IMG/VR virus record: IMGVR_UViG_3300030110_001739
Location: 1 to 26,190 of that record
Direction: 5' to 3' (one strand)
DNA: 26,190 nt
Source: a virus
Positions 1 through 23,746 of this stretch are shown here, piece after piece; positions within the stretch are counted from its first letter, which is position 1, and every line of letters starts with the position of its first letter. A model generated the notes under the pieces. It was given only the letters and a program-made list of their open reading frames with translations, was not told the origin of the DNA and searched no databases. The position numbers and the translations under genes were made by a program.

Positions 1-878
1 TCTCCACTAGATCCACTTGTACCGTCTATACCACTCGTACCTGTTGTTCCCGAAGTTCCACTAGTACCGGATGTACCATCATCTCCACTACTACCAGAAG
101 ATCCAGAAGTCCCACTTGTACCAGAACTACCGTCTTCACCACTAGAACCACTTGTACCCGATGTTCCATCAGTTCCACTCGTTCCTGTTGTACCACTTGT
201 CCCACTGGTACCACTACTTCCATCATCTCCACTAGACCCACTGGTACCTGCTGTTCCACTACTACCGCTCGTACCATCTATTCCAGATGTACCGGTCGTA
301 CCACTAGATCCAGAACTACCACTGGTTCCAGAAGTTCCATCATCTCCAGATGTACCATCTTCACCAGAGCTACCACTGCTTCCACTTGTACCACTAGTAC
401 CAGTAGTTCCAGATGTAGCTGATGTACCAGAAGAACCACTTGTACCAGCCGTTCCACTACTACCACTTTCTCCTGAACTACCACTTGAACCAGATGTTCC
501 ACTAGTTCCATTTGTACCACTTGTTCCATCTATACCTGAACTTCCACTAGTACCACTAGTTCCGTCATCACCAGATGAACCTGCTGTACCTGAACTTCCA
601 CTGCTACCTGCAGTTCCACTAGATCCAGAGCTTCCAGAGCTACCAGATGTTCCCGTTGTACCACTAGTACCATCTTCTGCAGACGTACCACTTGTACCAC
701 TTGTTCCGGATGTACCATCCTCAGCTGATGTACCACTCGTTCCAGATGTACCAGATGTACCGGTTGTACCTGATGTAGCACTACTACCTGAAGTTCCACT
801 AGTTGCACTTGTACCTGATGAGCCTCCTGTACCACTAGTACCAGAGGTTCCAGTTGTACCTGAAGTCCCTGAGGTACC
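1..878 (-). repeat. Collagen-like Gly-X-Y tract 4
   Basis: This is the longest tract, about 97 triplets before the left edge cuts it. Thr-Ser pairs dominate, with Ile-Asp, Asp-Asp and Glu-Asp pairs scattered through it. Alanine replaces the expected glycine at several places, for example the SAED segments near 672-680 and 720-728. Synonymous codons are heavily mixed. Confidence 0.95.
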
Positions 879-2819
879 AGAACATAATCCATTAACTCCT
901 ACCGATCCACCATTGTCAATAGTAGGTAGAGCTTTAGCACATACATCTGTTGCATTTCCTTCGGATATAGTAATAGTTTGAGCTACGTTTGCACAGTCTG
1001 TATAGTCTGCATCACAATCACCTCCACCACCTGGACATGATAAGTTATAACTTATACAGCTACCACCAGATGTACCGGAAGTACCACTTGTACCTCCTGA
1101 TCCACTAGAACCAGAAGTACCCGAGGTACCTGATGTGCCAGACGTACCTGATGTACCATCAATACCTGATGATCCACTCGTACCTGAAGAACCTGAAGAG
1201 CCTGAAGTACCTGTAGTACCAGAGGATCCTGCACTGCCTGATGTTCCAGATGTGCTGCCAACCGATACACCTATTTGTTTTATACTAAATATAGCAGAAG
1301 GTGAAGCTGGTCTATTGTACCCACCTGTTTGAGCAGATGTAGCAAACAATTGAACTGAATTACTGGAAGAAGCAAACCATAACTCTAAATAATCCCCTGC
1401 TTCTAATATTAGAAGGTAAGGAGTAGAAGGCATGTATCTAATGTTATTTTCTAAAGTTTTTATTCTATCCTTACGAGGTAAGTCCACACCATTCTTCTTG
1501 ATCCATAAATCTATTTCAGGATTACCAGCATCAGTACACTCAGCTTGTACAGTATAAGATATTTCATACACACCATTGTGTACAATTCTTACCTGTTGAT
1601 TAACATCGAGAACAAAACCGTTCTCTAATTCTGTTGTTTGGAATGTAACAGCCACTGGAGTATTAGCTGCTGGTTGACTATGACTTACATTAGATGAATA
1701 TGCTGCATACCAGTTTGCTATAGCAGCACCTGATGATCCATCAGCACCACTACTACCTGAGCTACCGGATGTACCGGTTGTACCAGCCGTCCCACTGGTA
1801 CCTGAAGTACCTGAGCTACCACTAGTTCCAGATGTACCTGGTGTTCCACTAGTTCCTGCTGTTCCACTAGTACCCGCTGTCCCAGAAGTACCTGTTGTTC
1901 CTGATGTCCCACTTGTTCCTGTAGTACCACTTGTTCCTGTACTTCCTGATGAACCAGCTGTACCACTACTACCAGGAGTACCACTGCTTCCAGAGCTACC
2001 ACTCGTACCAGTTGTACCTGATGTTCCTGTTGTTCCAGAGGTACCGCTAGTACCACTAGAACCATCACCACCTGTTGCACCATCTAAGTTTACACAGAAT
2101 GTAGTGTATGTTCCTGATCCCACACATGTAGTAGGTGCAGTAAAGGTTAAAGATCCTGTTGCTGAATTGTATGATATAACTTCGCACTCTTGATAATTGT
2201 TTACATCATGTGCGATAATAATAGATTGAGCCGGAGTATATGCTAAACCTGTACAAATAGTTAATGTACCTGCTTGACATAAAGTAAAACCAGGACTAGC
2301 GACAGTAAAGCAGCATTTATAGAAGTCTCCATCATCTCCTGATGTTCCACTCGTACCACTAGTACCCGTTGTACCAGCTGTACCCGATGTACCAGGAGTT
2401 CCTGATGTTCCAGCTGAGCCCGATGTACCACTTGATCCACTAGTACCAGTGGTACCAGAAGTTCCGGTGGTTCCTGCAGTTCCACTTGTACCTGATGTCC
2501 CAGCACTTCCGCTTGTACCTGAGGTACCAGCTGTAGCACTTGTACCAGACGTACCAGAAGTTCCTGAAGTAGCAGACGTACCAGAAGATCCCGAGATACC
2601 AGAGGTACCTGAGGTTCCTGACGTACCACTAGATCCATCCGCACCAGCACCTGAACATAGAAGTTTATCTATCTTCTCTAGTGCTTCTTCTACAGTCATA
2701 TTTGTCATGACTCCAGAGCATACGAGGTTTGGGCCCTCATAGAACACACAAGCTGCACTTAGTGTTATGGGGCAAGGATTAGCTGCACAAATTAAATTGC
2801 TACTACTTTTCTTACTCAT
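1..2819 (-). CDS. Collagen-like (Gly-X-Y) phage fiber protein, 3' end beyond the window
   Basis: Probable trimeric receptor-binding or decoration fiber of the virion. The frame opens at the ATG at 2819-2817 and has no stop to base 1, giving at least 939 residues. Order: N-terminal head (residues 1-58) with a 31-residue module shared with the upstream gene; Gly-X-Y tract 1 (59-164); Cys-rich beta module (about 165-243) with [16 protein letters not shown] and [17 protein letters not shown], a type common in phage fibers; tract 2 (about 247-364); a C1q/TNF-like jelly-roll candidate (365-517) with [18 protein letters not shown] and [11 protein letters not shown]; tract 3 (525-585); a six-Cys linker (about 586-646); tract 4 from 648 to the edge. 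X-Y pairs are mostly Thr-Ser, Ser-Ser, Thr-Thr and Thr-Ala, with little Pro or Lys. The gene starts 17 bases after the 131-aa gene, with no Shine-Dalgarno site, so it is probably cotranscribed. The fiber role is inferred from domain types. Confidence 0.9.
1065..1247 (-). repeat. Collagen-like Gly-X-Y tract 3
   Basis: A short tract of about 20 triplets joins the jelly-roll-like domain to the six-cysteine linker. The pairs are Thr-Ser, Ser-Ser, Ser-Ala, Thr-Thr, Ile-Asp and Ser-Gly. No alanine-for-glycine change was seen in it. Confidence 0.93.
1728..2081 (-). repeat. Collagen-like Gly-X-Y tract 2
   Basis: About 39 triplets run from the GATGGDG segment to the SGADGSSG segment just before the jelly-roll-like domain. 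The first few residues break phase once (Gly-Gly-Asp), after which the three-residue period is regular. Two Thr-Pro pairs occur, resembling the Thr-rich collagens of bacterial and phage surface fibers. Confidence 0.94.
2328..2645 (-). repeat. Collagen-like Gly-X-Y tract 1
   Basis: About 35 triplets lie between the N-terminal head and the first Cys-rich module. Alanine stands in the glycine position at 2535-2537 and at 2571-2573, in SGTSATSG and GTSATAG contexts. The tract ends with Gly-Asp-Asp-Gly. Confidence 0.94.
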
Positions 2820-2836
2820 TTATATGAATATATATA

Positions 2837-3232
2837 TTAATGTACTATTTTAAGAAGGTCTCCTGTACGGTATACTTCTCCTACGGATAATCCAGCAAGT
2901 AAAGCAGCATTGTTATTAGCATACTCAGGTGCACCTGCTTCAGGTATAGTTACAACAACTTCCCAATCAGAAGCTGTTCCAGCTAAATTAGCAACATAAA
3001 CTTTACCTCCTGGTACACTTTGATCTACATGTAGTTTTCCTACATAAGGTGCAGGACTAACCGGTGGAGCGGAAGTGAATGAAGGTACTAAGTTTGTGTC
3101 AATAAGTCCTAGGATATTCTGTAGATCATCTCCAGGATTTACCATTGCATTAACTAAGTATGGACCATTGTATATAATGCACTCTGCATTTTGCAGTACA
3201 GCACACGTGGGACAAATTTCAGCGGTTCTCAT
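2837..3232 (-). CDS. Small virion protein sharing the fiber's N-terminal module
   Basis: A 131-residue protein starting at the ATG at 3232. Residues 1-17 include CPTC. Residues 18-48 align without gaps to residues 24-54 of the collagen-like fiber encoded next (11 of 31 identical; shared core CxxYxGPxLV, then LxxIDxxL). The middle, with KLHVDQSV and VYVANLAGTASDWEVVV, suggests a small beta domain. The C-terminus GLSVGEVYRTGDLLKIVH resembles the closing motif of many small phage structural proteins. No signal peptide or membrane segment is visible. The likely role, inferred from the shared leader and position, is an accessory fiber, collar or head-decoration protein docking at the same kind of site as the fiber. 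The exact role is unknown. Confidence 0.8.
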   Translation of the reverse strand: MRTAEICPTCAVLQNAECIIYNGPYLVNAMVNPGDDLQNILGLIDTNLVPSFTSAPPVSPAPYVGKLHVDQSVPGGKVYVANLAGTASDWEVVVTIPEAGAPEYANNNAALLAGLSVGEVYRTGDLLKIVH

Positions 3233-3239
3233 ATTATTA

Positions 3240-3272
3240 CAAATTTAAATTATTATTTTATATTATTAACAA
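3240..3272 (-). promoter_or_regulatory. Bacteroidota-type promoter candidate for the 131-aa and fiber genes
   Basis: On the minus strand TTG (3272-3270) is followed after 22 bases by TAAATTTG (3247-3240), which fits TTG-N(17-23)-TAnnTTTG. The box ends exactly 7 bases before the ATG at 3232, so the transcript would be leaderless or nearly so. The region is very AT-rich, so a chance match is possible. The same geometry at the other promoter candidate supports it. Confidence 0.5.
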
Positions 3273-3312
3273 TCACTTATAAAACACCTTAGTATAATAT
3301 AGCAATTGTATG

Positions 3313-6300
3313 TTATCTTCTGTTTTGAGCAGGAATAGTTACATCAAAATCTCGAGCAAATTGATCACTAGTTACAGCTAACCAGTTAACCATTCCTTTA
3401 GTTAGTGGGAACATCTTCATTAGATACTTGACAGGTTGAGCTTGTTCTCTAACTGATTTAGGAGTCGATCCACTCTTAAGTGTTGCATACATTCTTCCAT
3501 CCATTCCAGTTGTTTCTCTCATAAAGTGATCAAAGAATCTACTAATCTCATCGAATAAACCAAGAGAAGGGAATATCCCTTGACTTAACATACTATTCCA
3601 TTCAGCTGGATTATAGAAGAACATAAGTTCTTGGGAGAATCTAGCAAGAGTTCTTTTCATGTATCTAAAGAAGTTCTTTTCTGCTTTGGTAGCATTGTCT
3701 TCTGGTTCAAAGTATCCCATAACCATTAGCAGTTGTGTAAGAGCTATAACGATAGCAATCTCTCTAGTTTGATTTCTTATATTGTTTCTAACCATCTCAA
3801 TAAAGTCTTCCCTAGACATGTTTAGTCTTTCTCCTGTTTGTTGCTCGTACTGTTTACTGTACTTTTGATAGAGTTCATCTATCTTTGCAAGTCCATTATC
3901 ATCTAACTTGATGGTTCCTTTTATATCTTTTACCATCTTCACTACATTCAGACTAAGAAAAGATGCAAATAATCTGGCTCTACCAATATCATAAACTTCA
4001 CCAGTAGTAGTACCATCATCTTTTATCTCCACCCCAAAGTCATCACCCATCTTCTTAAATCCTTGGAAACGTGTAGCTACAAGTTTGGGAATCCAACTCT
4101 TGAATACCATTGCAGACTTACCAAAGATATTCATGTTCATAGATATCTCATCAAAGTCTGTAAATCCACCAGTTGCTGTTCTAGATATATCTCTGGCTAT
4201 GTTCGTTAATCGTTGTACTTCATCTCTATTCTTCAAATCAAAACCTGGTATTACAACCTTACCATCTACTAGTTTTTTAGTGGCAAAGATAGACTTGTTT
4301 TTACTCAAGTTATCTATCTCCTTATTGATCTCTCCTATAACCTTGTTGTACTCCGCAGCATTTTTATATCTATTTTTGTATTTATTCTTTACAAAGTCTC
4401 TGATATTTACAATGTTTCCATCTACTACCATCATGTTCTGCATCAACACTTTAAATATAGCTCTCTCCATAAGAAGTTCAGGTTGTCTAAAGAAGAAGAA
4501 TAAATCATCACTTAGATTTCTTCTTGTTAAAGCAGTTATACCAGCGTCTCTTAGTGCATCGTATGTAGGACTATCTTTTAAAGGTTGGAAGATTTCTTCT
4601 AATTGTACAAATGCTTCTTTCTGTTCTCCACTTCTAAACTTATTTCCTATTAAGCTAGTTAATGCTGCTTGGAATTCTGCTCGAGTAAAGTATTTTCCTG
4701 ACTGAGCTATCACCTGTATACCAGCACCAAATGCATTAACCATACCTGAAATAGGTTCTAGTCCTAAAGTTTTGAGTGTAAACCAACTATTCATACCCTC
4801 CATGATTTTTATTACAGAGAAGTAACTTGGATTATCTGTATTTGAAAATGGTTCTACATTAAATAACTGTTTCATTACAGAATTTATTCCCTTCTTAGCA
4901 CCTTGAATAGGAATAGCTTGATCAATATCAGATGTATACTTCTGGTCGTATAGGATACTTTTTAAGAACTGATCAAAGAATTCTGTATTATCTTCATTCC
5001 CTTGTTCTATTACAGGTGAGTTTCCTTGCTGAACTACATTTCCTATCCAGTTAGTTTTGTAATGATCTTTTGCTTTCATTACAGTTTTAACTAATCTCAT
5101 TTGACCTTCAATCTCACTTATATATTTGTACTTATGTACATGATTAATATAAAGTATTTGGTTTTTAAATAACTCTAGAGATACATCAGACATATTATTA
5201 GGATTATTTTCATCCTGATTACTAAAATCATAGGTATAATATTTTGGTACACCTAACATAGTTTCTCCTGTTAATGCATTTATCTTTCCATACCCTACGT
5301 CCTCAGCATTTCTAGTAAATGCCTTTCCCCAGTTTTGAACTGCAGACAATCCATAATCCCAAGAAAGAGATTCAGCTGTGCCTTTCGATATAAAAGGTAA
5401 GAAGGTAGACTCTGCTTTATTCTGGAGGTATCCTACATCTGCTGCTATACTATTTATTTCTCTTATTAAATTATATAAAGCAAACAAGTCTTTATCCTTA
5501 GTGAGATCCTTGTACTCTTTAGATAACCATTTATCTTTAGGATGTTTTGCTAGTATCTCGTTAGACCAACCATTAAAATCTCTTCTAGAGATATCATACT
5601 TCTGTCTAGTATCTTGAATAGCTTTGTCTCTTAAACTCCTTAAATCTTCAGTAGCATATAGAGACTTATGCCTCTCAATTTCACGTTGCATAATAGGAAT
5701 AGCTTCTTTTTTATATGCTTCTATATCTACATTGTCAAATAACCACTGTTTACTTCTATTCCCTTCAGCAGCATTGTCTCTCATTTGATTATAAAACTCT
5801 CTCTGATATTTATATATTAACTGATTTACTAAAGATCCATCTTCTTGTCGATATATTTTTCTTACTGTTTCTGCAAGATTACCACCTCTATCTACTAGCT
5901 TTTTTCTAATAGCCATTAACTTTTCTACATAACCTCTAGACTCACTATCTGCATCATCTTGTGCTCTTCTAGCTGACCTTGATAGTATTCTTAAAGAAGG
6001 TAAAGGTAAATCTGATAGACGTGTAAATAGTCTGCTGAAAGATAAACTCTTTATAATTTTTGTAGGATTTAAAAGTCCTGTAACATTATATTTATTCCCA
6101 ATAAATTTGTCAGCAAACTCTCCTGTAATTCTTTGAACCTCTTCTCTATTGGCCATTATCTCTTGTTGCTTTCTATTTATCTCATCTTGAACCTGTTGTT
6201 TCTGAGACTCAGCAATATTTAGAAATGGAATTAACGGTGCAATTTCTACATTTATTTTCTCAAATGCTACAGACTGATCTAAGTAGTCATTCATTCTATC

Positions 6301-8190
6301 AGAAAATTCATTTAATTGTTGGTTATCAAAAGTATTTTCACTTGGTTTAACACCTTCATAAGTGGTAATATACTCAGCTACAATAGCATCTCCTTCATTT
6401 TTCATTACTGATATTGCATCTATAATTCCCTTAACATTTAAGTTAGCTTGTGTAAGTCTAACTGCTTTCTTTATAATGTTTAAACGATCTTTTTTAGAAG
6501 TTTTAGATGCCTGATCGGTTGCATTCTCATCTGATATAACATCATATAACTTATTAAGTTTTGTTAAAAGTTGATCTAATCCTGGTATATTAGTACTCTC
6601 ATCTGTTACCGGAACAACTGTAAGATATAAAGGAGTCTCTTCTCCTTTCTTGGGAACTACAGAACCTATAGCTATACTTGTTAACATAAGCTCAGAAGTT
6701 TGATCCTGAAAGTTTTCTCTTTTTAAGTTAAGAGCAATCGGTACAGCTCTAGTCTTTCCAACACTCTTTACTCCATATACATTTTGTAGTATTGCACGAT
6801 AGGTTTTAAGTTGTTCGTTAAATGCTCCTTGTTTATACCAAGCTACGTCTTGGGTATTCTTACCCATACTTATAAACTTCCAATCATATATATGTGTCTT
6901 TCCGTCTTGTTCTACTATAAGAAGATCTATGGTACCTGCTTCATCGTTAGTAGGATCATATACCATTACTTCAGAAAACACTAGAGGATTTCTTCCATTC
7001 TTAGAAAAACTTGCAATTAAATCTGTATAGTATTTTTCTAATTTAGTGTGAACTTCAGCTCTTTGTCTGTCAGCTATGTACATTCTTTGACCAGGTATCT
7101 GTCTTCTAGTTCCATCCGGATTAAAGAATCTAGCATGTATCTGTTCAAACATATCATGAAATTCAACTCCTAGTTCTCTCTTAACATTATTATCTATCTT
7201 CTCTTGTTCGGTAAATTCTATTCCACCTCGAAATCTTTGTCTGTACCACTGCTTTACTCTATCTGTTACTCTGTTTTGTACTCTTACATACTCATCTCCC
7301 TGCTTTACCTCATAGAAACTATTACCATTTTCTTCATCTTGAAGTAAAGGATTTATTGGTTCATTACTTTCTATCTTTCTTATATTCTTTTTAGTATTAA
7401 GAATACGATCCTGTATTTTCTTTTGAGGATCCGTAAGTGTAAAGTATAGTTCTCTAGGAGTACCATCTAATAGTTCTCCTTCTACTCCTTCTGTTGTAAT
7501 TATGCCAGCAATCTTTTGGAATATATCTACATTAGATTCTGCGTAAACGCCTCTAAACCAGCCAGTTATAGCATCCCATATTCTTTTAAATAAAGATCTA
7601 TCTTGTTCTGTTAACTCTTCTGGTTCTACTACTGTATCAGAAGCTTCAACATCAGATAACTGTTGGCCTACAATATATGCTATAAGTTTATCAGCTGCTT
7701 CTTTCTTTATCTTTCTTATATTTGGTCTTCCATCCGGTAGTTGATAAGCTGGTATTTCTCTATACTTTTCTAAAGTTTTATTATATATTTTAAACCCACC
7801 TATCTTAGATATCATTTCTGTAACCAACTCAGGATTCTGTTGTTCTAATATTTGAGTGGCAATGTGTACCATCTCCTCTGTTATATCTTCTTGAGTTGCT
7901 CCTTCACTAACTGCAATAAGTTTACCTACAGCATCTGCAACAGAGTTTGCCCCTCTAATATCCATGTCAGGATTTTCTGCCGCATAGGTTTGTAGATCAG
8001 TTAAGCTAACACCCATCTTAGCTATAAGCTCTTTTACTTTAGAAAGATTACTCTCTACTGGTACGGTGTTAGTATACTCTCCAGGCACATTACCATCAAA
8101 GTTATTCCATAGGAAATATGCTTTCTCTTCACCTTGAGCTTTAACTAGCTCTTTCCATTCCGGACTATTTATGTTAGGACATATCGCCAT
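3313..8190 (-). CDS. Large virion cargo protein with PD-(D/E)XK nuclease domain and zincin-like remnant
   Basis: A 1625-residue protein. I start it at the ATG at 8190, which overlaps the upstream stop as TAATG; a TTG two codons earlier is possible but less likely. Residues 1-35 (MAICPNINSPEWKELV...) look like the start of known phage structural proteins. EEMVH at 105-109 resembles a zincin site with its first His replaced by Glu. FKRIWDAITGWFR at 201-213 matches a helix in the giant polymerase protein. A full RecB/Cas4-type PD-(D/E)XK set follows: H345, E407, D422 (GTIDLL), D436-W-K438, and Q460xxxY464. Residues from about 650 on are mostly helical. A hydrophobic stretch (IAIVIALTQLLMVMGYF) lies near 1475-1490. 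Likely packaged with the polymerase and acting on DNA after entry or during packaging; that is inference. Confidence 0.88.
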   Translation of the reverse strand: MAICPNINSPEWKELVKAQGEEKAYFLWNNFDGNVPGEYTNTVPVESNLSKVKELIAKMGVSLTDLQTYAAENPDMDIRGANSVADAVGKLIAVSEGATQEDITEEMVHIATQILEQQNPELVTEMISKIGGFKIYNKTLEKYREIPAYQLPDGRPNIRKIKKEAADKLIAYIVGQQLSDVEASDTVVEPEELTEQDRSLFKRIWDAITGWFRGVYAESNVDIFQKIAGIITTEGVEGELLDGTPRELYFTLTDPQKKIQDRILNTKKNIRKIESNEPINPLLQDEENGNSFYEVKQGDEYVRVQNRVTDRVKQWYRQRFRGGIEFTEQEKIDNNVKRELGVEFHDMFEQIHARFFNPDGTRRQIPGQRMYIADRQRAEVHTKLEKYYTDLIASFSKNGRNPLVFSEVMVYDPTNDEAGTIDLLIVEQDGKTHIYDWKFISMGKNTQDVAWYKQGAFNEQLKTYRAILQNVYGVKSVGKTRAVPIALNLKRENFQDQTSELMLTSIAIGSVVPKKGEETPLYLTVVPVTDESTNIPGLDQLLTKLNKLYDVISDENATDQASKTSKKDRLNIIKKAVRLTQANLNVKGIIDAISVMKNEGDAIVAEYITTYEGVKPSENTFDNQQLNEFSDRMNDYLDQSVAFEKINVEIAPLIPFLNIAESQKQQVQDEINRKQQEIMANREEVQRITGEFADKFIGNKYNVTGLLNPTKIIKSLSFSRLFTRLSDLPLPSLRILSRSARRAQDDADSESRGYVEKLMAIRKKLVDRGGNLAETVRKIYRQEDGSLVNQLIYKYQREFYNQMRDNAAEGNRSKQWLFDNVDIEAYKKEAIPIMQREIERHKSLYATEDLRSLRDKAIQDTRQKYDISRRDFNGWSNEILAKHPKDKWLSKEYKDLTKDKDLFALYNLIREINSIAADVGYLQNKAESTFLPFISKGTAESLSWDYGLSAVQNWGKAFTRNAEDVGYGKINALTGETMLGVPKYYTYDFSNQDENNPNNMSDVSLELFKNQILYINHVHKYKYISEIEGQMRLVKTVMKAKDHYKTNWIGNVVQQGNSPVIEQGNEDNTEFFDQFLKSILYDQKYTSDIDQAIPIQGAKKGINSVMKQLFNVEPFSNTDNPSYFSVIKIMEGMNSWFTLKTLGLEPISGMVNAFGAGIQVIAQSGKYFTRAEFQAALTSLIGNKFRSGEQKEAFVQLEEIFQPLKDSPTYDALRDAGITALTRRNLSDDLFFFFRQPELLMERAIFKVLMQNMMVVDGNIVNIRDFVKNKYKNRYKNAAEYNKVIGEINKEIDNLSKNKSIFATKKLVDGKVVIPGFDLKNRDEVQRLTNIARDISRTATGGFTDFDEISMNMNIFGKSAMVFKSWIPKLVATRFQGFKKMGDDFGVEIKDDGTTTGEVYDIGRARLFASFLSLNVVKMVKDIKGTIKLDDNGLAKIDELYQKYSKQYEQQTGERLNMSREDFIEMVRNNIRNQTREIAIVIALTQLLMVMGYFEPEDNATKAEKNFFRYMKRTLARFSQELMFFYNPAEWNSMLSQGIFPSLGLFDEISRFFDHFMRETTGMDGRMYATLKSGSTPKSVREQAQPVKYLMKMFPLTKGMVNWLAVTSDQFARDFDVTIPAQNRR

Positions 8191-8192
8191 TA
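8188..8192 (-). other. TAATG stop-start overlap (giant protein to nuclease gene)
   Basis: The TAA ending the 4194-aa gene (8192-8190) shares its last A with the ATG (8190-8188) of the next gene. No Shine-Dalgarno site precedes it. Terminating ribosomes probably restart here, which ties the yield of the nuclease protein to that of the polymerase. This also favors the ATG over the TTG at 8196. Confidence 0.75.
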
Positions 8193-11100
8193 GCAAAGTC
8201 TTTTATTAATTGCACCTATTTGTTTTTCAGAGTATCCTAACTGAGTTAAGAGAGGTGCGTTATTTTTTATTTCTTCTACTGAAAACTCTTGAAAAGGTCG
8301 GAAGGCTAAGAACTTATCACCTCTTACTTCCCATTGTCTTATATTTGTTGCTGCTCTGTATCCACTGTTACTAGATAAATTAGACTGAGCTGCATCAAAG
8401 TAATAAACGATTTCTGAATTTCTTTTCTCTATAGCTTTTAAAGTACCATTATCAAAAACTGAAGGTTGTGCTCCATCATAATATTCTGCAGCTCTGAAAC
8501 CATCACCTAATGCATTTACATGTTTATAGATTACATTTTTATATACCTTCCCTTTATATTCAGTCTCATAAATATATGGAGTACCATTATCATTAGTTAC
8601 CATTTCAAAAAGACCTCTGTTTATAAATGAAAAGTCTCCTCTAGAAGCCATTTCCTTTCTTTCCTCATTAGAAATACTTTCATTAGTCCAACTATACATA
8701 ATGAACCTTTCGTTAGCACTACGCATATAAGTAGGAACTTTTAGTATTTGAGGGATAGCATTAGTTTCAATTGCTGCACTAACTTCTTTTGGCATGAACT
8801 TCATACCAATATTTCTAATTAATCCTCTTGCCGTTTTAACATTTTTCTCCTTCAGCGAAACTACAGGACCGTTACTTAGAGCCCAAGCATTTCTTTCAAA
8901 CATACCCAGTGTATAGAAGTCTTCTAAGTTACCATTATTATCTAACCTAGACAAGGTTTTATTATACACTTTTGAAAAATCTTCATAAGGTATTAAGGAG
9001 GTAAATGATATATTACTGTTATTTAATCCAGATTGTAATATTGATGTTAATACAATTTTATCATAAAGATTACTGTCCGAAGATAGATATTCTTTAAGTT
9101 GTTCAAAGCCATAGATGATAGCATTTTGATCATATACTTTTCTGTCGTTACTTTTAAGTGTCAGATTAAGAGGAACCGCTCCTACTCTTCTGGAAGGATT
9201 AGTTGTAAATAAATTTATAACCTCATTGTTATATAAAGGATGATCAACATTTTGTTTTACATCATTAACAAAACCTATAACCTCTCTTGCAACAGCTGTA
9301 TCTCCGGTTAGATATTCTTTTAGTAATGTATTTAATTGTTGATTTGTCTGTACAGCATAGTCAAACAAAGCATTAGTAGCCGCTCTAGCTATTCTTACAA
9401 AGTTGTAATCTGAAGTATTGACATATGGAAGAAGCACCTTGTGTAGTACACTTGTTACAGCTGATTGATCTGCAGTTAAAGCACTAGCTATTCCTCTTCT
9501 TGCATCCACCACTGTATCCGCTGTAGTAGCTAAAAATGTAGAATCCATAGTAGCATCTGCAGCATCTATTACCTGTCCATTCACATAAGCTTTTATCTTA
9601 ATATCCTTAGCCTTTATTTGGTTTACTGTTTTCTTAAACACTATATAAGGATCATTAAATACAGTTACATCCCAGTTGGTACCAGTGTTTAAATCAAATA
9701 ACATTGTCGATTGGTCTGCATATTCTACAAACTGTTCTAACATGTATCCTTGAACCTTCTTCTCTTGAGCACTTAAACTTTCTAAACTTTTACCTATATA
9801 CTTTCTAAGATAGTTAGCTGCCGGAATAGTACTACCTGTAAAATCTATGTTTTCAGCATTTATACTTTTTAAAACTTCCTCTTTAATATCTTCTCTTACT
9901 ATTTTTATTCCTCCTTGGTTCTCTATAGTTTGTATATACTCTTGTATAGCTGGTTGATTAATAAAGAATGCTACATCTCTTAAAGGTACACCAGCTCTTA
10001 GTAGGTATAACCATGTAGATACAGTTCTACGTGTAGCACCTAAGGCATATATCCATGGATCCTTTGCAATGTCTACATAACCATCCATAAACTGTCCCAT
10101 TATATCTGATATAAAATTACCAGCTGCGTTTCTTCTACCAGAAAAACTAATCATCTCTTCACCTTCTATGTTCACTGTATTCTTGTTCTTGAAAGAAATG
10201 TAATTTGTAGGAAGAAATAATGTTACATGTTGTGCGAGAGCTAAACTAGTCTGACCAATAGCTGCAATACCAATAGCCTTCTTACCTGCTACAAATGCAT
10301 TTCTCAATCTCTGCATAAACGGTCTATCTAATAAATTGTCTATATTATTAGAATTGAAAGATGTTTGTCCTTTTCTCTCTACAATTTCAGCTGCAAGGGC
10401 TTTAGCTTGATCAGCATTATTTGGAAGAATTAGTCTCTCAAAGTTTTCTGGTAAGGTGATTAAATTTTCCATAGAGTTTATATACTCATTCTCTAGGGAC
10501 TCTTTATATATCTTGTCGATAAATGTTTTCTTAGCTCCTTTGTCTCTTATTTCATCAACAAAGTCTAAAGTAGTTTCTTCACTATCAAATAAACCAAAGT
10601 TTCTAAGAACAGTAATTAAGTCATCATCTCTTTGTTCAGTTTTTTGATCCCTCTGTAATGATTGCTCTACTCTATCTAGATCTCTTACAAATCTATTGAG
10701 TTCTTTTTCTTGAGCAGGTGATATAAACTCTCCTTTATCATAGTCTTCTGTGATCTTTACTTTAGCATCCTCTCCTATACCATAAAAAGGTACAGCTTTC
10801 AGACTACCATCTATTATACGTATGTTTTTTAGGAATAGATTTAATTTATCAATATCAAAATCCGATCCTACTTTCTTGACTATAGCTGACGGTACAATAA
10901 CTTGATCTGAATACTCTTGAGGTAAGAATTGTTTTATCTTTATAGCATCTATAGAGTTTTGTTTCTGTGTAGGTATACGATATGCAACACCACGTAGAGC
11001 ATTCTGTCCTTCTTCTGTATTGTTAAAATATTCTAGTAGCTCTGCATCAGACATGTCACTTTGGAACCAACGACCTACCATAATCTCCATTACTCGCTCA

Positions 11101-14100
11101 CCATCTTCATTCTCATAGAACTTAAGTATGTCAGATGTATATCCATTTAATTCTTCATTAAATGCTGCACGTTTGCTTTCTAAATAAGCAGAAGGCATTT
11201 GTACTTTCTCTCCTCCAGATATTTTAGGTCTTACTATGTTTTTCTGTACAATAGAGTATATAATATTTCTAACCTCATTATACGCAGGGGTAGATTCTAG
11301 TACAGATTGGCCTTCTAAGAAACCTGTAATAGCCTGACTAAGATTATCATTTGATTCTCTTTTAAACATTTCTTCACGTAGAGTAGTAGCTATTTTACTT
11401 AAGTCTTTTACTTGGAATCCATCTTTTGTTCTTTCTATACCCAGCCTATCCAACACTTGTTTACCTGCTTCTGACGTAAGAGCATTAAGTAACCTTGTGT
11501 TTCTATCTATTTCTCTATAGATTGCAGAATCGGCTATCTTCTGTTCTTTACTTAGTTTATTCCATTCATCGAATGTACCGTCATAATCATAAGGTACACT
11601 ATTATCTAAAAGATCTAAAGTTACCAATTTAGTAACCTGACTACCTCTAGTAACTGTACCACTAGTTTTAGAAGGTACGTCTGATTGAAGACCTATTATA
11701 GAAAAAGGTACGTTTATCTTATTGTTATATGGAGCATCATTAAACTCTCCATCTACATAAGGTGCATGTACCGGTCCAGCTCCTACCTTTCTACCACTTT
11801 TAAATACTATGTAGTCTATGTTTTCATCCTGCATCTTATTATATAGCTTCACCATATTAGAATCAGGATCAAGTTCCTTCATTATTCTATAAGAGATTGG
11901 GAACAATGCAAATTTATCTAGTACTGTTTCGTTTATAAAGTTGTCTCCTCCTTCATATCCCAATCTCGCTCCTGATACTATAGGTTTTAAAGCAACTATA
12001 TTTACTTTAGGGTTACCTGCCTTAAGAAGATCTCGTTCTCTACGAGTTAGCTTTTGTTTTTTGTCTCTCTTTTCCCATGCAATATTATATCTATATTGTC
12101 TTTCTTTATCTGCATTCCATGTACCAGTTCTAAGTTGGAAGTTACGATCTGCTTGTTCCGTTATTAATCCACCACCATCTGTCTCGTCAAAATTCTTATC
12201 ATATAATTCCGATACACCTAGGACATCTCCATATGTTACAGTAGAGAAATAATCTTTTGTAAAGTCTGTATAACCTATTGTTTCAGGTGTGTAGTCTCTG
12301 TTATATAAGTCATTGGCTTTACTATTCCATGCAGGAGAACTATTAATTACAGGCTGTCTAGGAGATAGGAAACTCTTAGTACGCTTCAGTTCATCCTTGT
12401 ATTGATAAGGATCACCGTATATTAATTTGTGTTGGTCTATATTTGCAATTATATAATTAGCAGTCATTGTTGCCATAACGGTAGTGAGACCTTCAGGTTG
12501 TATAGTTCTCATCCCTTGAACATTGTTTATTGTATATCCAACTGGATTACCTAGACTATTATATTGTTCTTGGATAATTCCATTTTTTACTAATTCAGAT
12601 ATAGTTCTAGAAGTATTTCTTAATACATACTCAAATGTTTGAGTTTTAATTTCTGCTTCCTGACTGGCGTATATAGTTTCTGCATCCTGTAAAGGATCTA
12701 AGATTTGTTTTTCTATTTCCTTGTTTGTTTCCTCTGTCAAGATACCTTTAAAGAATCTTAAATCTGTAGACTTTCTACCATCTATTAGCTCTAGATTATC
12801 ACGTTGTTCTTTAGCTAAGTTTACCTCTGCTATAAAGAAGTCTTTCATAATAGCATTAAACACAGCTTTATCAGTTCGCAGATCACTTTCTGTAACTGGA
12901 TTACCCATCTCTAGTGCCCACTCTAATGAAGAATCACCAGGAACTAGATTTAGATATATTCCATTCATATTTAAGTTTAACTCTTGTGTTAATCTTTGAG
13001 GAATAGATAGTTGAGTAGATTTAGTATTTCTACCGTTAGATTGATTTACTATACCTCCTGCAGTTACTGAAGATAATAATTCATTAGACCCTGGTAACTT
13101 ATTTCCGTCTGTGTCGAATATTCTGTTGAGGGTGCTAGATCCTTTAGCGAATACATCTGTAAGTAAATAAGAAAAAGGTGTACCAGCTAATTCAGATATA
13201 TTAGAAATACTTTTTATCCAGTCATGTAATTTAGAGAACGAGTTGGGAGCTATATATGTTTGAGCTTTTTTACCTTCTACATTACTAAAGGTACTTCTTA
13301 CCTCAGGATTTTGGAAAGCAGATTTTATAGTAGCTAACTCCATAAGTCTACCTGCCATGTTTAAAGCTTGAGAATTAAATATACGTATGTTTCTTGATTG
13401 GAGAATACTTGATTTAATTCCTCCTACTGCTTCATTTAATATAGCAGCTCCATCAACAGCATTATTAATAGCTCCTCTACTTATATTTATTCCTATAGCT
13501 TTTAAGAACTCTAGGTTTTTAGAAACGGTTCCAATAGGTTTTTTTAATATAACAGGGTTAGGATTAAATATACCATCTGTATTTATAAAAGCACCAGAAC
13601 CAGATCTAGATTGAGTAATAATATTATTAACAAACTCTTTTGCTATCTGACGAGCAGCTGGACCAACACTTGCTTCAGTTACCTGAACTTCATTACCTTC
13701 TAACACATTTACCACTGGAACCTTATTTGCAGTTTTGTTAAATGTTTTCCATAGTGTAGTTATTAAAGCTAGTTGATGATCTTGTGTTATATTATCTAAG
13801 TTAGGTATAACATTAGGTTCGGGTTTAGCTCCTACTACACGTCTATAAAAACTGTCATAATTAATATCTGATAAAGCTAAGTCTCTAAGTTTAGATAACA
13901 TGTCTGTTATACTAACTGCACTAGCTAGTTTAGATAGAAGAGTTATATAAGTTTGACTCTGAGGTAGTAACTGAACTCCTCCTATACTACTAGGAGATAC
14001 TGCTATACTACCCTCACTGCTTACTTGTACTCTAGGGATAGTACTAAGAAGTAATCTGAATCCTGAATTAGTTTGTTTGTAATTATCTACAAGAGTAATA

Positions 14101-17100
14101 TCTGTATTCCATCCCTTGTTTGATTTTACCTCTTGAAGTTCTAGTTGACCTTGCTCATCAAAGGTGATAGAGAATTGTCTCAAGAACTCTTTATGTTTTT
14201 CTATAATCTCAGGCCATAATGTATTTACATCAGATCCTAGAGTTAAGTACTTTTCTTGTAGAACAGTTATATAATCCTGAAGACTTTCTGAATTGTAGTC
14301 TTCATTTTTTCTATCCTCTTCTAATTGATATATACGTTGATCAATCTTTTTCTGAACTCCATCTTTTAACTTATCATAAAGCCCTGTTAGATCTTGTGTA
14401 AACCCACTAAGTAAGTCTCTTTTGGTGCTTACAAGAGGAGTGATCATATCATATGTCATTTGATGAAGTATATCACGCATCTCTTTACCACCTATCCTTC
14501 CTCCTAAACTAAATACTCCATCTGTTACGGTTACTGTATCTATGTCCATGAAGAGAGCAGGACCAGGTGTAGCATAATATCCATCTCCTATTCTATCAAA
14601 TAATTCTTTAGTAAACTTACTAGAGTCTGGACTTCTAAACCAGCTAGTTATAAGATCTTTTAGTTGTTTAAATATCTTTACGTAAAAAGGTTTTTGGTTA
14701 TATTGTACATAGTCTTTAAACTCTTCTGCTAAGTGTTCTCTCATTTCGTCTTGAGTAGCCTCAGAGAACTTTATATTTTTACCTGTAGGTCTATCTACAA
14801 ACGTACCTTTACGTTGTTTAAACTCATTATATAAATTAGCTTTCTCCTTACTATCTAAGAACATTCCATACACAGCTTCAAATGCTTCATGATAAGCTGT
14901 ACCCACCTCTGCATTTTCATAGATATACATAGCTGCATCTTGGAACATACCCCATGCTTGTTTACCGTTTCCGTTCTCTATAATATTCTTAACTCTAAAT
15001 ACTGGAACACTAGGTAGATTTGTTTTCATCCAACTGGTAACTTCATTCCAGTTTTTATCAGACATTCTTTTTACAGCACGATCAGTAATCTCACGTAGTA
15101 CTGGATCACTACCACCTCTTCCATTGTTAAGTCTTCTTTTGAGTTCTGCCTCACTATCTTGTTGTGTTGGTTCAAAATAAGCAGGTAATCCATCATCATT
15201 TTTACCTGCATATGTATAACCTCTAGCTATTAAACTATCTGCTTCTTCTTGACTTTCAGCAGTCTCTAACTTGTTAATATCAAACTCCCCTGGATCCTGT
15301 TGTGTTGGTTGTTCTTTAAACTTTGTAAAGTTTAGTTTCTTCTCAAGGGCAGATGCTTTCTCATTTATATCCTTCTCTTGTTGATCATTTCTTTTTGCTT
15401 TAGCAATAAGAGGATTAACATAGTTATATATAGCAGCCTTTACTGTTTGATTAGCTCTCTCACTAGTCATACCTTTGGCCTCTCTAAGATCTTTTTTAAC
15501 CTTTTCAAAATCCAAACCAGCACGCATTTGAATAGCTTGCATGTAGTTTTGAGAATTAATACTAGGACTAACTGTATAATTTAACTTGTTACCATTAACA
15601 GAAGTAAAGACATTAATTGTCTTTCCGTCTAGTACAGGAATATCAGCAGGATCTACAATCATAACCTCTTCCTCTACATTTAAATCTATTTCTCTACTCG
15701 TGTCTACGAGATATATAGCTCTCCTATTTATTTGCTTAGGAGCATCTGGATTGAGAACATCTCTAGAAGGTTGTATGTTTACATATAAAGGAAGATCGGA
15801 AGCAGATCTAGTTTGTCCACTTGGGTCTTGAGAAGCTAGAAGGTAGTCTTGATAGTTTCTCCATTTTACTTGTTCTATATTACCTCCAGCATCTATACTT
15901 TTAATTTGAAAGAATGGCTCATCAGATTTAACATAGGAGTTATTAATGTTAGAATACATATCCATCAACGTAGTAATGATAAGCTCTTCGTTAGCTTGTA
16001 AACTCCTTACATTAAAGTCTATAGGTTCTCTTTGATTCTCTACTCCAAAGTTTATAACTGCTTTTTCAAACATCTCCACACCACTAAACTTACTGGTCTT
16101 AATAAACTCAAAGTATACACTGTTCTGTCCTGCAGCATTACTTGGTTTACCCCAATAGGTAACTCCTCTTAGAAACTTTAATGCATTTTGTGCTAAGTCT
16201 GATCCTTTTCTTTTTGCAAATAGTTCTGTTGCATAAGTTAAAATAGAATCATAGATAGCTTTAGCCTCCTCACGAGTATGTTTTCTGTTTCGTGCTTGTA
16301 CATAACCATTAGATGTTTTTATAAATACACTACCTAAAGGTTGCTCAAAAGATTGAGATCCATTCTCTGAAGAAAAAGTATTATTATTTGTAGGAATGTA
16401 AATAACTTTGTCTTTTATACTACCTTGTTCTTCTACTAACCCTGCTTCCCAAACACTAACAGGAGAAGGTGTTGATTCGGTAATACCAAAGGAAGGTGAT
16501 ATTGTAAAAGGTTCACCTAATGGGTTGTTTAAAATATTTGATCTCCACTCTTTATACTCCTCTACTATTTTTTTAGCTTGATTAGAGTCGGGATTTCTAA
16601 ACATGCTACCATTGTCATAGTATTTAGACTTGAATCCGTTCTCAGGCATAAACATATAGATAGCATTATCTAGTACATTTTCACCTTCTGGTATCTTTGC
16701 TCCGTCTTTACCTACCAGGTCACCATCTGTGTCAACTACAACCATAGCTATAGCTGTCTTCTTAAAGCTTTCTAAGTTCTCTTCTGGTGCTCCCTCTAAC
16801 ATCTTTTCTATAACGCCAGGTATTAACTCACTTTGAGTGCTAGATGTTACGTATATACCACGCATCTCATCCCTTCTTTCCATAGTAGGAAGATTAAAAC
16901 CAAACTCATTAGCTCTAATCACTGCATCAGTAGGATCTTTTTGTACATCATCAAGAGGTATTGTAGACCTAGATATAACTTCATTTGACTTCTTAGCTAC
17001 AGGGTCAAAAGTTTTAGGCACAGCTTCTACAACAACAGACTTATCTCTATTGTTTTCAAGTTCTTGTTGTGTTTTTATATCCTTAGATATTTGATCTTGC

Positions 17101-20100
17101 TCTGCTCTTTCTTTATTAGCCTGATCTATATACTGTTGGAATCTATTTACTATTTCTCTCTTTACTTTGTATTCTTGTCTGAGTGCATCTAGTTGATTCT
17201 CTAACTCTTCAGTCTTTTCTAGTGCTTCAAATGCAGCCTTCTCTGATATGCTAACTTCTTTAAGTAAGTCATTTGTAAGATTAAAGTCTGCGAGCATTTG
17301 TTTTAACAAAGGCCAGGTGGATTCTAGGTCTTCTCCTTTTGCAGCTTTTTCTAATAGAAGATCCATATCTATTGTAAAGTCTTCTCCTACTTTATATCCA
17401 GACTTAATGCTAGCTTTTAGTAATTTAGCTGCAGATTTAGCAGCATCTATTAATTTATCTATAAGTTTTTTGTTCTCAGCAATCTCTTTCTTTACCGCCT
17501 TACCATTGTCTTCTAATAACTTTAATTGTTGTTTTAATTCATTTAAGAATGTTTCATTGTTACCAGGTATGTCTGCTAGGTCTTTTGTAAATGTATCAAA
17601 GTATTCTACGTTTAAAGTATTTTCTTGTTGCTCTAGTTGTAATTCCTGTACACGTTTTTGTGTATCAGTTTGCATCTTAGTAAGCCTATTGATTGTTCTA
17701 GTAAAGTTCTTTGATGCCTTGGAGTAAGTCAACTTAATAGTTTCTGCACCCTCTTGCATAGCAGCTATAGCATCTAAGTCTTTCTTAATTAAATCTAAAG
17801 TTTTATTGTCTTTCTCTATTTGTCTATTTATCTCTTCTAATCTTCTTTTAGATTCTATACCTAAGTCACGCATGATCTCTAATCGAGCTTCTCTACTAGC
17901 TGCTAAAGACTCTTGTTCTTGTGCTAGGTTCTTATCAGATAAATACTCCTCACTAGCTCTTCCTTGATTTTCACTTAAAACTCCTACTGGTTTAATAATT
18001 CCATCTTTAAAAAACTTACCTGTAATCTGTTTTCTAAGTACAGTTCCATTAGAGTCCTTGTAAACAAAGTACATTTTTCCATCGGAGTATTGTAATCTAC
18101 CTTTACGAGCACCTCCTTGAGTAGCAGGTAAGTTAAATTCAAATACTTTATTTCTGTTCTCAAAGTAATATGCTGCAGCTTTATCATTCTCTAGACTGGA
18201 AAGTGGTGCTACTTTTAAATTAAGTAACTCTTCCTGTGAAATATCTTTAACCAGTCCATTGTTATCTTTTATTTTTATAGTACCATCTTCATTCTTTCCT
18301 AGCACTTCAATCTCAGATATTTCAATAGGTTGGTCTATTGCTGTATCTCCCTCAAAGTCTACTCCTCTTCCTACATAATATCTACCTCCTATATCTAATG
18401 TTCTTTCTCCATCTTTAGTAGTTACTACAACAGAACTATCTTCAATATCTGTTTTCTCCTCGTCTTCATCTGGGTCTGTACCTGTAGGAGGAGCAGAGGA
18501 ATACATGTCAGGATTGTCTTTAATCTTGTCATACTCTGCAAGAAATTGTTCTCTCTGTATAACCATTTTACCAAGATCTTCTAGAGCTTGTTTTTGACTA
18601 TTTTTAATATCTGATAGTATGTTCTGTGCGTCTATAAGATCCATTGCATTAGATAGACTTGCTCCATCTCCAGCAATAATATCTTTTATCATAGTATCAA
18701 AGTCTACTCCTGGTAAAGCTGTATTAAATTCAGCTATTATATCCTGCATACGTTTGTCAAAGTTTTGTACTGTAGCAGCTGCATATATCATTTGATTGAT
18801 AACATCTTCATTGTACACTGTTTCCATTTGACCAGTATTCTTGTTTAGTCTTTGAATACCTCCATATCTTAAATTGAGTGATTGATATAAAGTGTTAATT
18901 TGATCAGCCACATCACTTAGATTATCTAAACGATCAATGTATTTTTGTTTTGTATCTCCAGGTGCAACTTTTCCTTCAGCTTCTAGCTGTGTAAAGTCTC
19001 CTACAGCTACATCTCTAAGAGTTTTTATATCCTCTTTTACTAAATCATACCTACCATATTTTATTCTAGGAGTTAGATAGTTTATTATATAGTCACTTTC
19101 TAAACTCTTGTAAGCATATGCATCTCCTCTTTCTGCTGCCGCATTTAACTCATCTCCTAATACTCCTGCTCTGTTAACTGAATAAATTGTCTCTTGAGTA
19201 AATTTAGATAGTGGTGGAGAATCATTAAGTTCTCTAATTGCATTAGCTGTATTAGTATTTCTACCTATACGCTCTCTGTTCATTCCTCTAATAGTCATTA
19301 TTCTACCAGAGATACCACCAATTAATGCATTCTTAGCACCTTCATTACTGAACACACCATCTGTTAGTCCTACCCCCATAGAACCTATCCAACTGGTTGC
19401 TTCGTTATTATATTGTTTATTGTAATAATCTTTTGTTGTAACACTAATTCCATATTGAGAAACTTCTTCTAGTGCTTCTGTAGTAGAAAATAAATAAGGT
19501 CGGATATTATTTAGTGTACGAAGATAAGGATGAATCTTTTTAACATCTGGAGTAAACGTTCCTCCTCTAGCAACTATACCATTAGTTCTCTTTATAGTAT
19601 TATTAAGAGCTGCCTTTTGTGTTGTGTAACCATTACGTGCAATACGAGGGAACATAATATAGTTACTTGCAGTTAGAACACCTACGTTAGACCAGAAAGA
19701 AACATTACCTGCACCTTCTACTGCAGCATTTATATCCTCCATCGCTTGTCCACTAGGTATTACTCCATACTCCTGTTTATAGTCGTCTATTAAAGTTTGT
19801 CTAAATTCATTACTGTTATGTAATGCTTCAATACCAGCTTCACCTTGTGTAGCTAGTCCTGCTACTGTGATTCTCTGAGCTGGACTTAAAACATTATATT
19901 GACTTAAGAAGTTTTTTGAAAGACTCTCAAGTTCACCATATACACCAGCTCCTCTATTAGCTGCAGATAATCCTTTTTCTGTAGCAGCTAATGTTGCTGC
20001 TGCATTAGGTTGTCCGGTTGCTACCATACGAGCACTTAAACTAAGTCCTCTAAGGGCACCAGCGTATGCTGCACCTGTATAATATGCACCTACAGCAAAA

Positions 20101-20774: not shown

Positions 20775-20776
20775 TA
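20772..20776 (-). other. TAATG stop-start overlap (963-aa gene to giant protein)
   Basis: The TAA of the 963-aa gene (20776-20774) shares its last A with the ATG of the 4194-aa gene (20774-20772). This is the same arrangement as at 8188-8192, so three consecutive large genes form one translationally coupled chain. The preceding bases (CCTAAGAAG) offer no clear ribosome binding site. Confidence 0.75.
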
Positions 20777-23665: not shown

Positions 23666-23672
23666 AATTTCA

Positions 23673-23703
23673 CAAATGTATTATTATTTACAGAATTATC
23701 CAA
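23673..23703 (-). promoter_or_regulatory. Bacteroidota-type promoter candidate for the cargo-polymerase-nuclease operon
   Basis: On the minus strand TTG (23703-23701) is followed after 20 bases by TACATTTG (23680-23673). This fits the Bacteroidota vegetative promoter form TTG-N(17-23)-TAnnTTTG. The box ends exactly 7 bases before the ATG at 23665, so transcription would begin at or beside the start codon. It implies host RNA polymerase, rather than the virion enzyme, reads this late operon. Confidence 0.55.
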
Positions 23704-23708
23704 GGTAG

Positions 23709-23746
23709 ACTAATCTCTTTTGGTAATTCTTTATAATCAGATTAGT
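23709..23746. repeat. 8-bp inverted repeat between the cargo genes
   Basis: ACTAATCT (23709-23716) and AGATTAGT (23739-23746) are perfect inverted copies around a 22-base spacer. One arm touches the stop codon of the upstream gene, and the other lies 5 bases before the TTG element of the promoter candidate. No T-run follows on the minus strand, so it is a poor intrinsic terminator. A protein-binding site or a weak RNA hairpin is also possible. Confidence 0.35.

Follow-up and report, generated by a model that had tools for sequence, protein, structure and literature searches.

TAnnTTTG promoter boxes placed against virion-gene start codons in a crAss-like phage predict leaderless or nearly leaderless mRNAs

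The window, the whole stretch of DNA that was analyzed, comprises the first 26,190 bases of the 74,491-bp virus record IMGVR_UViG_3300030110_001739. Two TAnnTTTG boxes, here called sites 1 and 2, lie close upstream of the first genes of two minus-strand units, one leading to a tail fibre gene and the other to a virion RNA polymerase-type gene. The genes and features are as follows.

3..2819, minus strand: collagen-like tail fibre gene, 939 aa, running off the window (Pfam Collagen 1.2e-70; PHROG tail fibre); second gene behind site 1
2837..3232, minus strand: 131-aa gene (MRTAEICPTC...); heads the site-1 unit, with the tail fibre gene next
3230-3232, minus strand: site 1 start codon ATG
3233..3239, minus strand: site 1 spacer TAATAAT between box and ATG; predicted transcription start at 3235 or 3234
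3240..3247, minus strand: site 1 -7 box TAAATTTG, 7 nt 5' of the ATG; also found in relatives
3270..3272, minus strand: possible site 1 -33 TTG, not conserved among site 1 sequences; 22 nt upstream of the box
3293..3303, minus strand: upstream element B, GCTATATTATA, at a near-constant distance to the box
3313..8196, minus strand: 1627-aa protein that weakly matches a PD-(D/E)XK nuclease; third gene behind site 2
8190..20774, minus strand: 4194-aa virion RNA polymerase-type protein with a DFDID motif; second gene behind site 2
20774..23665, minus strand: 963-aa gene (MASYLDNIPTFN...); first gene of the site-2 operon
23663-23665, minus strand: site 2 start codon ATG
23666..23672, minus strand: site 2 spacer TGAAATT; predicted transcription start at 23668 or 23667
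23673..23680, minus strand: site 2 -7 box TACATTTG, 7 nt 5' of the ATG
23701..23703, minus strand: site 2 -33 TTG, 20 nt before the box; TTG is present there in 8 of 10 aligned sequences
23718..23736, minus strand: upstream element A, TTATAAANNATTACCANAA; it begins 56 nt ahead of the site 2 box

A sequence-only reading of the window had pointed out a box 7 bases before the ATG at 3232 and the same spacing at 23673-23680. Both are exact in the reverse complement, TAAATTTG-N7-ATG at site 1 and TACATTTG-N7-ATG at site 2, and each ATG is the earliest ATG, GTG, or TTG in its own frame. They are the only start-proximal intergenic TAnnTTTG boxes before ATG ORFs in the 74.5-kb record; the other intergenic boxes within 80 nt of same-strand ATG ORFs have gaps of 21, 27, 28, 30, and 31 nt. 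If transcription starts 4-5 nt after the box (PMC6847099), the predicted leader at site 1 is 3 or 2 nt. The same length is predicted for site 2, from the Flavobacterium johnsoniae spacing and from the hairpins of relatives described below.

The N-terminus of the 131-aa protein resembles that of the tail fibre (33% over 36 aa). Its AlphaFold model is poor (mean pLDDT 53), and BLAST searches of the named-phage collection with the gene, as DNA and as protein, gave no matches. The 4194-aa protein matches by blastp the catalytic RNA polymerase subunit g066 of phi14:2 (5.6e-27) and crAss001 gp47 (2.5e-35). The crAss001 match covers residues 127-755 and the phi14:2 match residues 2589-3630, and the protein appears to fuse what are separate proteins elsewhere.

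The terminase and portal match PHROG families. Among the matches listed, the named phage with the best terminase match is Leptolyngbya phage Lbo-JY46 (40%), and the terminase is also similar to those of Cellulophaga phages phi17:2 and phi4:1 (32%) and of gut crAss-like records (27-29%). Judged by the related terminase and the virion RNA polymerase homologue with its DFDID motif, the phage is crAss-like in the broad sense. The 90 records with terminase matches include 29 Flavobacterium phages and nine Cellulophaga phages, and the best single match is annotated Leptolyngbya. From the promoter type and these Flavobacterium and Cellulophaga terminase relatives, we infer a Bacteroidota host. Lbo-JY46 (PP438436.1, 75260-77797), annotated with a cyanobacterial host, carries many Bacteroidota-type TAnnTTTG boxes at promoter distance, and its orthologue of the 963-aa gene has a box at gap 20; the host assignment is worth re-examining. 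A host scan with a conserved 521-aa protein of the window phage yielded a single contig, of 13.4 kb, from a Tissierellales MAG (JACIXZ010000023.1, L195); it encodes an 85% relative and is likely a misbinned phage contig.

The shuffle check suggested in the sequence-only reading favors a nonrandom placement. The 40 ATG-start ORFs of the record have two gap-7 boxes against a shuffled mean of 0.025. None of 2000 sets of shuffled upstream regions reached two gap-7 sites and 15 of 2000 reached two at gaps of 3-8 nt; the gap of 7 was picked after being seen, and the independent support is conservation. In a raw count over 11 whole records, coding sequence included, TAnnTTTG-N5..8-ATG occurs 139 times against 100 for the reversed pattern, only a modest excess and no flood across the genomes.

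The distance from box to ATG is bimodal. Over nine genomes, for intergenic TAnnTTTG and ATG ORFs of at least 60 aa (non-ATG starts being outside the scope), 18 boxes lie 3-7 nt before the ATG, one lies at 8-13 nt, and 68 lie at 14-36 nt. The five family genomes, which share orthologous sites, contribute 9, 0, and 36 to these classes, and the four named phages 9, 1, and 32. At 3-7 nt, 29 letter-permuted control boxes averaged 0.21 in the family genomes and 0.41 in the named phages; the top permuted box, ATnnTTGT, occurs five times at this distance in named phages, and its letters allow overlap with the real box in TATATTTGT. Dropping the intergenic requirement gives 20, 1, and 78 for the three gap classes among 971 starts, versus 22, 39, and 119 for 5569 internal in-frame ATGs, a comparison in which orthologues are counted as independent.

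Conservation of site 1 was followed in 12 orthologues of the 131-aa gene, namely ten loci, L182, and the window; a second copy on the contig of L013 (L014) and two loci in which only residues ∼100-131 match (L023, L024) were omitted. The exact box is found at gap 5 or 7 in eight of the 12, window included, and two others have TAAATTCG at gap 7 in its place. The remaining two (L016, L182) have neither box nor spacer, and since their upstream gene ends 21-32 nt before the ATG, the 131-aa gene can presumably be expressed there by read-through. Protein conservation starts at M1, and the G009 and G010 copies contain no other in-frame ATG. At the 5' end of the gene, the differing fraction is 0.27 in the first block of ten codons, 0.23 in the second, and 0.17-0.50 in later blocks. 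We do not claim a downstream coding element, as this synonymous constraint is only mild.

Element B accompanies the site 1 box. It occurs once per record in 10 of the 11 records searched, and in an alignment of ten sequences its centre falls 56 or 57 nt upstream of the box's final base, at box-to-ATG gaps of 5 and 7 alike; element B is therefore phased to the box and not to the start codon. A scan of the viral collection for GCTATATTATA followed by a box 35-60 nt on returned at least 119 stretches (122 rows with the window). Total spans of 62-64 stand out sharply among the matches listed, with 43 rows against eight or fewer in every other bin. At least 18 MRTA-type orthologues, window included, were found, all at spans 62-64, and the gaps of the 18 listed are 5 (14), 6 (two), and 7 (two). 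The 49 listed rows at spans 61-65 divide into 19 with a gap of 8 nt or less (the 18 and L521), 17 with no ORF nearby, and 13 with longer gaps; of the remaining 73 listed rows, four have a gap of 8 nt or less. Those with longer gaps include three fibre-like genes (L446, L537, L494), at 30, 30, and 76 nt, and by eye their N-termini resemble that of the 939-aa fibre.

Site 2 is likewise conserved. The pattern TACATTTGTTAAATTATGGCA, with up to three mismatches, was found in 11 of 13 records, the window's included. The two misses are G008, a 44-kb fragment with no match to the 963-aa protein, and G012, whose homologue has the box TAAATTTG 40 nt before the ATG and represents a leadered form. Ten site-2 sequences were aligned, all with a gap of 7; they had been fetched by pattern matches at gaps of 5-8, so the gap is not blind. 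In 43 of their 45 pairs, the last 22 nt before the ATG are more alike than the next 63 nt upstream. The next in-frame ATG of the 963-aa gene is conserved at codon 22-23 and could in principle serve as a leadered start; residues 1-22 are also conserved. The layout TAnATTTG-TNAANTT-ATGGC is present at other viral genes (L076, L078, L079, L103, L161, L126, L133, L141, L158, L144, L145, L162); this pattern fixed the gap beforehand, and its 62 further matches amount to one coding chance match.

The element A consensus was drawn from the family alignment. When it was scanned for, with sites less than 130 nt from a locus end dropped, the matches listed gave at least 116 usable sites. In 27 of these a box begins 20-70 nt downstream, at an offset of 55 or 56 in 22 cases. 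A control pattern, approximately the motif read backward (15 fixed bases versus 16, not an exact reversal), had a box in three of 118 matches listed. The 27 include at least four others, off offset 55/56, that look like coding chance matches, and three family members that helped to define the motif (L085, L086, L094).

A second scan, for element A plus a box at a spacing of 25-45 nt, was blind to the ATG and returned 41 stretches (42 rows with the window). The 42 rows comprise 39 orthologues of the 963-aa gene, several of them near-copies, one tail gene from a record of 100,418 bases, evidently that of phi14:2 itself, and two chance matches in coding sequence (L215, L435). The 39 orthologues fall into two forms, 19 leaderless (gap 7) and 20 leadered (gap 37-40), with none between, and in both the box lies 55 or 56 nt from the start of element A. 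Contig 3300037520_001064 (loci L464 and L442) combines a leaderless site 1 with a hairpin-leadered site 2, so the form is a property of the promoter and not of the phage. A quick tree was built from 38 orthologues and an outgroup (36 of the 39 orthologues, with at least 140 aa present, plus G003 and G009); the program warned of long branches. It requires at least two changes between the forms, two being forced by well-supported branches, and places one small leaderless clade among leadered relatives. That clade could also reflect promoter exchange through recombination instead of a second loss.

Hairpin leaders lie behind the virion RNA polymerase operon promoter of related phages, e.g., at L198, L201, L246, and L253 and at the other leadered loci. 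All 15 distinct leaders in the element A plus box scan contain a hairpin stem of 5-8 pairs that begins after 6 nt (seven leaders) or 7 nt (eight leaders). Their mean stem score is 6.13, versus 0.74 for shuffled leaders and a maximum of 2.3 in 300 shuffles. Twelve of the 15 leaders were brought into a common register; in these, both partners of pairs 4, 5, and 6 have changed (TA/CG, GC/AT, and CG/AT/TA), pairs 2 and 3 are invariant, and pair 1 varies on one side. A sixteenth leader, that of G012 (gap 40), fell outside the element A scan because its element is degenerate, and departs in part from this pattern: the longest stem seen by eye would start immediately behind the box, and just a short inner stem begins after 7 nt. 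For a hairpin to be fixed in the RNA 6-7 nt after the box, transcription should begin ahead of it, within ∼7 nt of the box.

Named phages carry comparable sites. Phi14:2 has three start-proximal boxes, at the tail protein gene g070 (gap 5), the portal gene g093 (gap 6), and g110 (gap 4); phi17:2 has four and Lbo-JY46 two. In phi14:2 and phi17:2, the ORF starts at these boxes are those of the deposited annotation, and the phi17:2 set includes a helicase gene, so start-proximal boxes are not confined to virion genes. No box at gaps of 3-7 nt was found in the 100,000 of 102,679 bases of crAss001 that were scanned. Phi14:2 contains one perfect TTATAAANNATTACCANAA match. It immediately precedes the g070 promoter, whose gap is 5, and its distance to the box is 9-10 nt shorter than at site 2. 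In 44 comparisons of upstream regions from named phages with sites 1 and 2, only the phi14:2 tail gene against site 2 (two comparisons) reached the 2% level in shuffles; the portal promoter did not reach it.

Promoters of the Bacteroidota primary sigma factor (σABfr) consist of a -33 TTTG and a -7 TAnnTTTG (PMC6847099, PMC7366714), and the -33 element is much less evident in F. johnsoniae too (PMC6847099). The latter report gives a box-to-start spacing of 4 or 5 nt for F. johnsoniae. We consider it probable, at about 0.85, that both boxes are host-read Bacteroidota promoters giving leaderless mRNAs that start 2-3 nt before the AUG (0-3 nt in relatives). They would act as -7 elements recognised by host RNA polymerase carrying the primary sigma factor of Bacteroidota, and as the box adjoins the start codon, the ribosome would engage the 5'-terminal AUG directly. 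With the F. johnsoniae spacing, gap 7 would leave a leader of 2-3 nt, which is nearly, not strictly, leaderless, and gap 5 a leader of 0-1 nt. The start codon is AUG at both sites, and the gap of 7 minus the published 4-5 nt places the predicted 5' end within ∼5 nt of it; the hairpins bound the start to at most 6-7 nt after the box. Selection against short intermediate leaders would leave just such an empty stretch of gaps, 8-13 nt overall (apart from one box) and 8-36 nt in the scanned site-2 orthologues.

Elements A and B are two different phage elements, starting 54-56 nt before their boxes, and are probably binding sites of activators that would switch on the virion genes. Element B is centred 61-63 nt before the predicted transcription start; under the class I activator rule, the protein is bound near -61.5.

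The genes might instead be translated mainly from read-through polycistronic mRNA, with TAnnTTTG as a secondary or internal promoter of little weight. Late-type genes arranged head to tail on one strand would suit such a scheme, as would the loss of the whole promoter spacer in two of the 12 orthologues of the 131-aa gene. We nevertheless regard it as unlikely, because the box, its phase to the upstream element, and the gap are kept while the DNA between changes, and because an internal promoter would have no need to avoid gaps of 8-36 nt. It is far less plausible that the box is part of an AT-rich, Kozak-like translation-initiation signal and not a promoter. F. johnsoniae does tune initiation by mRNA structure and several base identities (PMC6847099), but the same box stands 37-40 nt from the ATG in 20 orthologues, its distance at site 1 is fixed to the upstream element and not to the ATG, and permuted boxes of equal composition are little enriched. 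Chance, conceivable in that TAnnTTTG is short and frequent in AT-rich DNA and its whole-record counts exceed the reversed control only modestly, is refuted by conservation across records, in line with the absence of two gap-7 sites from all 2000 shuffles, and has practically no weight.

The leaderless reading of these two promoters, as first proposed from the sequence, is thus well supported by comparison, through conservation, bimodal gaps, the two forms behind one promoter, and the hairpins. Its extension, that leaderless transcripts would explain the lack of Shine-Dalgarno sites, is not supported as a general cause. Only two genes here have such an intergenic box, and the other boxes imply leaders of ordinary length; F. 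johnsoniae, described as without Shine-Dalgarno sites, is mostly leadered, 87% of its predicted transcripts with a probable promoter having leaders longer than 10 nt (PMC6847099). About 3.7% of 5' UTRs in Bacteroides thetaiotaomicron are reported to be shorter than 10 nt, and 5.5% leaderless mRNAs are reported in Flavobacterium psychrophilum. With so few leaderless mRNAs in mapped Bacteroidota, we confine the claim to these phage promoters. The description of the mRNAs as late would fit the gene content, i.e., tail fibre and virion RNA polymerase.

More tentatively, and with rather less than even confidence, we suggest that the sites belong to a dedicated class of virion-gene promoters, in which a phased activator site ∼55 nt upstream and a host -7 box would yield an mRNA that is either leaderless or has a 5'-hairpin leader, with nothing between. 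The forms would have switched at least twice, going by the quick tree, and can differ within one phage, which may suggest selection for a protected or ribosome-seizing 5' end late in infection.

Orthologous promoters with no leader and with a hairpin leader offer a ready-made paired comparison for measuring leaderless initiation in Bacteroidota, a phylum without Shine-Dalgarno sites in whose mapped members leaderless mRNAs are a small minority. To our knowledge, the transcription of crAss-like phages has been little mapped, and the sites provide sequence-based promoter predictions, with an upstream element, for their virion genes. The cultured phage phi14:2 carries the same features, and the unusual translation start is directly testable there. 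Leaderless mRNAs were first found in phage lambda (PMC3160421), and phage transcripts are remarked to be often leaderless (PMC5312081). A prediction that sought only Pribnow-like boxes found leaderless genes in one of 37 Bacteroidetes/Chlorobi genomes (PMC3160421). In the titles and opening parts of abstracts covered by our literature search, nothing was found on leaderless promoters in crAss-like phages.

Four known systems invite comparison. Lambda cI and actinobacterial genes are examples of leaderless mRNAs, and as in these, the AUG at sites 1 and 2 would lie at or beside the predicted 5' end; unlike them, the present cases are operons for virion genes in crAss-like phages, headed by a TAnnTTTG promoter, and the leaderless form is interchangeable with a hairpin leader in orthologues. 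The ompA mRNA has a 5'-terminal stabilising hairpin, and the likeness to it, a short stem-loop at the 5' end, is limited to the leadered orthologues, where a stabilising role is putative. The sites share with σABfr promoters the -7 box, the TTG 20 nt upstream at site 2, and the predicted spacing from box to start, and differ from them in having the ATG 5-7 nt after the box, with no leader, and a phased phage element ∼55 nt further upstream. Phi14:2 (Akihdevirus balticus) is like the window phage in its virion RNA polymerase homologue, its element A, and its TAnnTTTG-N5-ATG at tail gene g070, and also has the gap-6 box at portal gene g093; it is unlike the window phage in that element A precedes another gene and no start-proximal box was found at its RNA polymerase genes.
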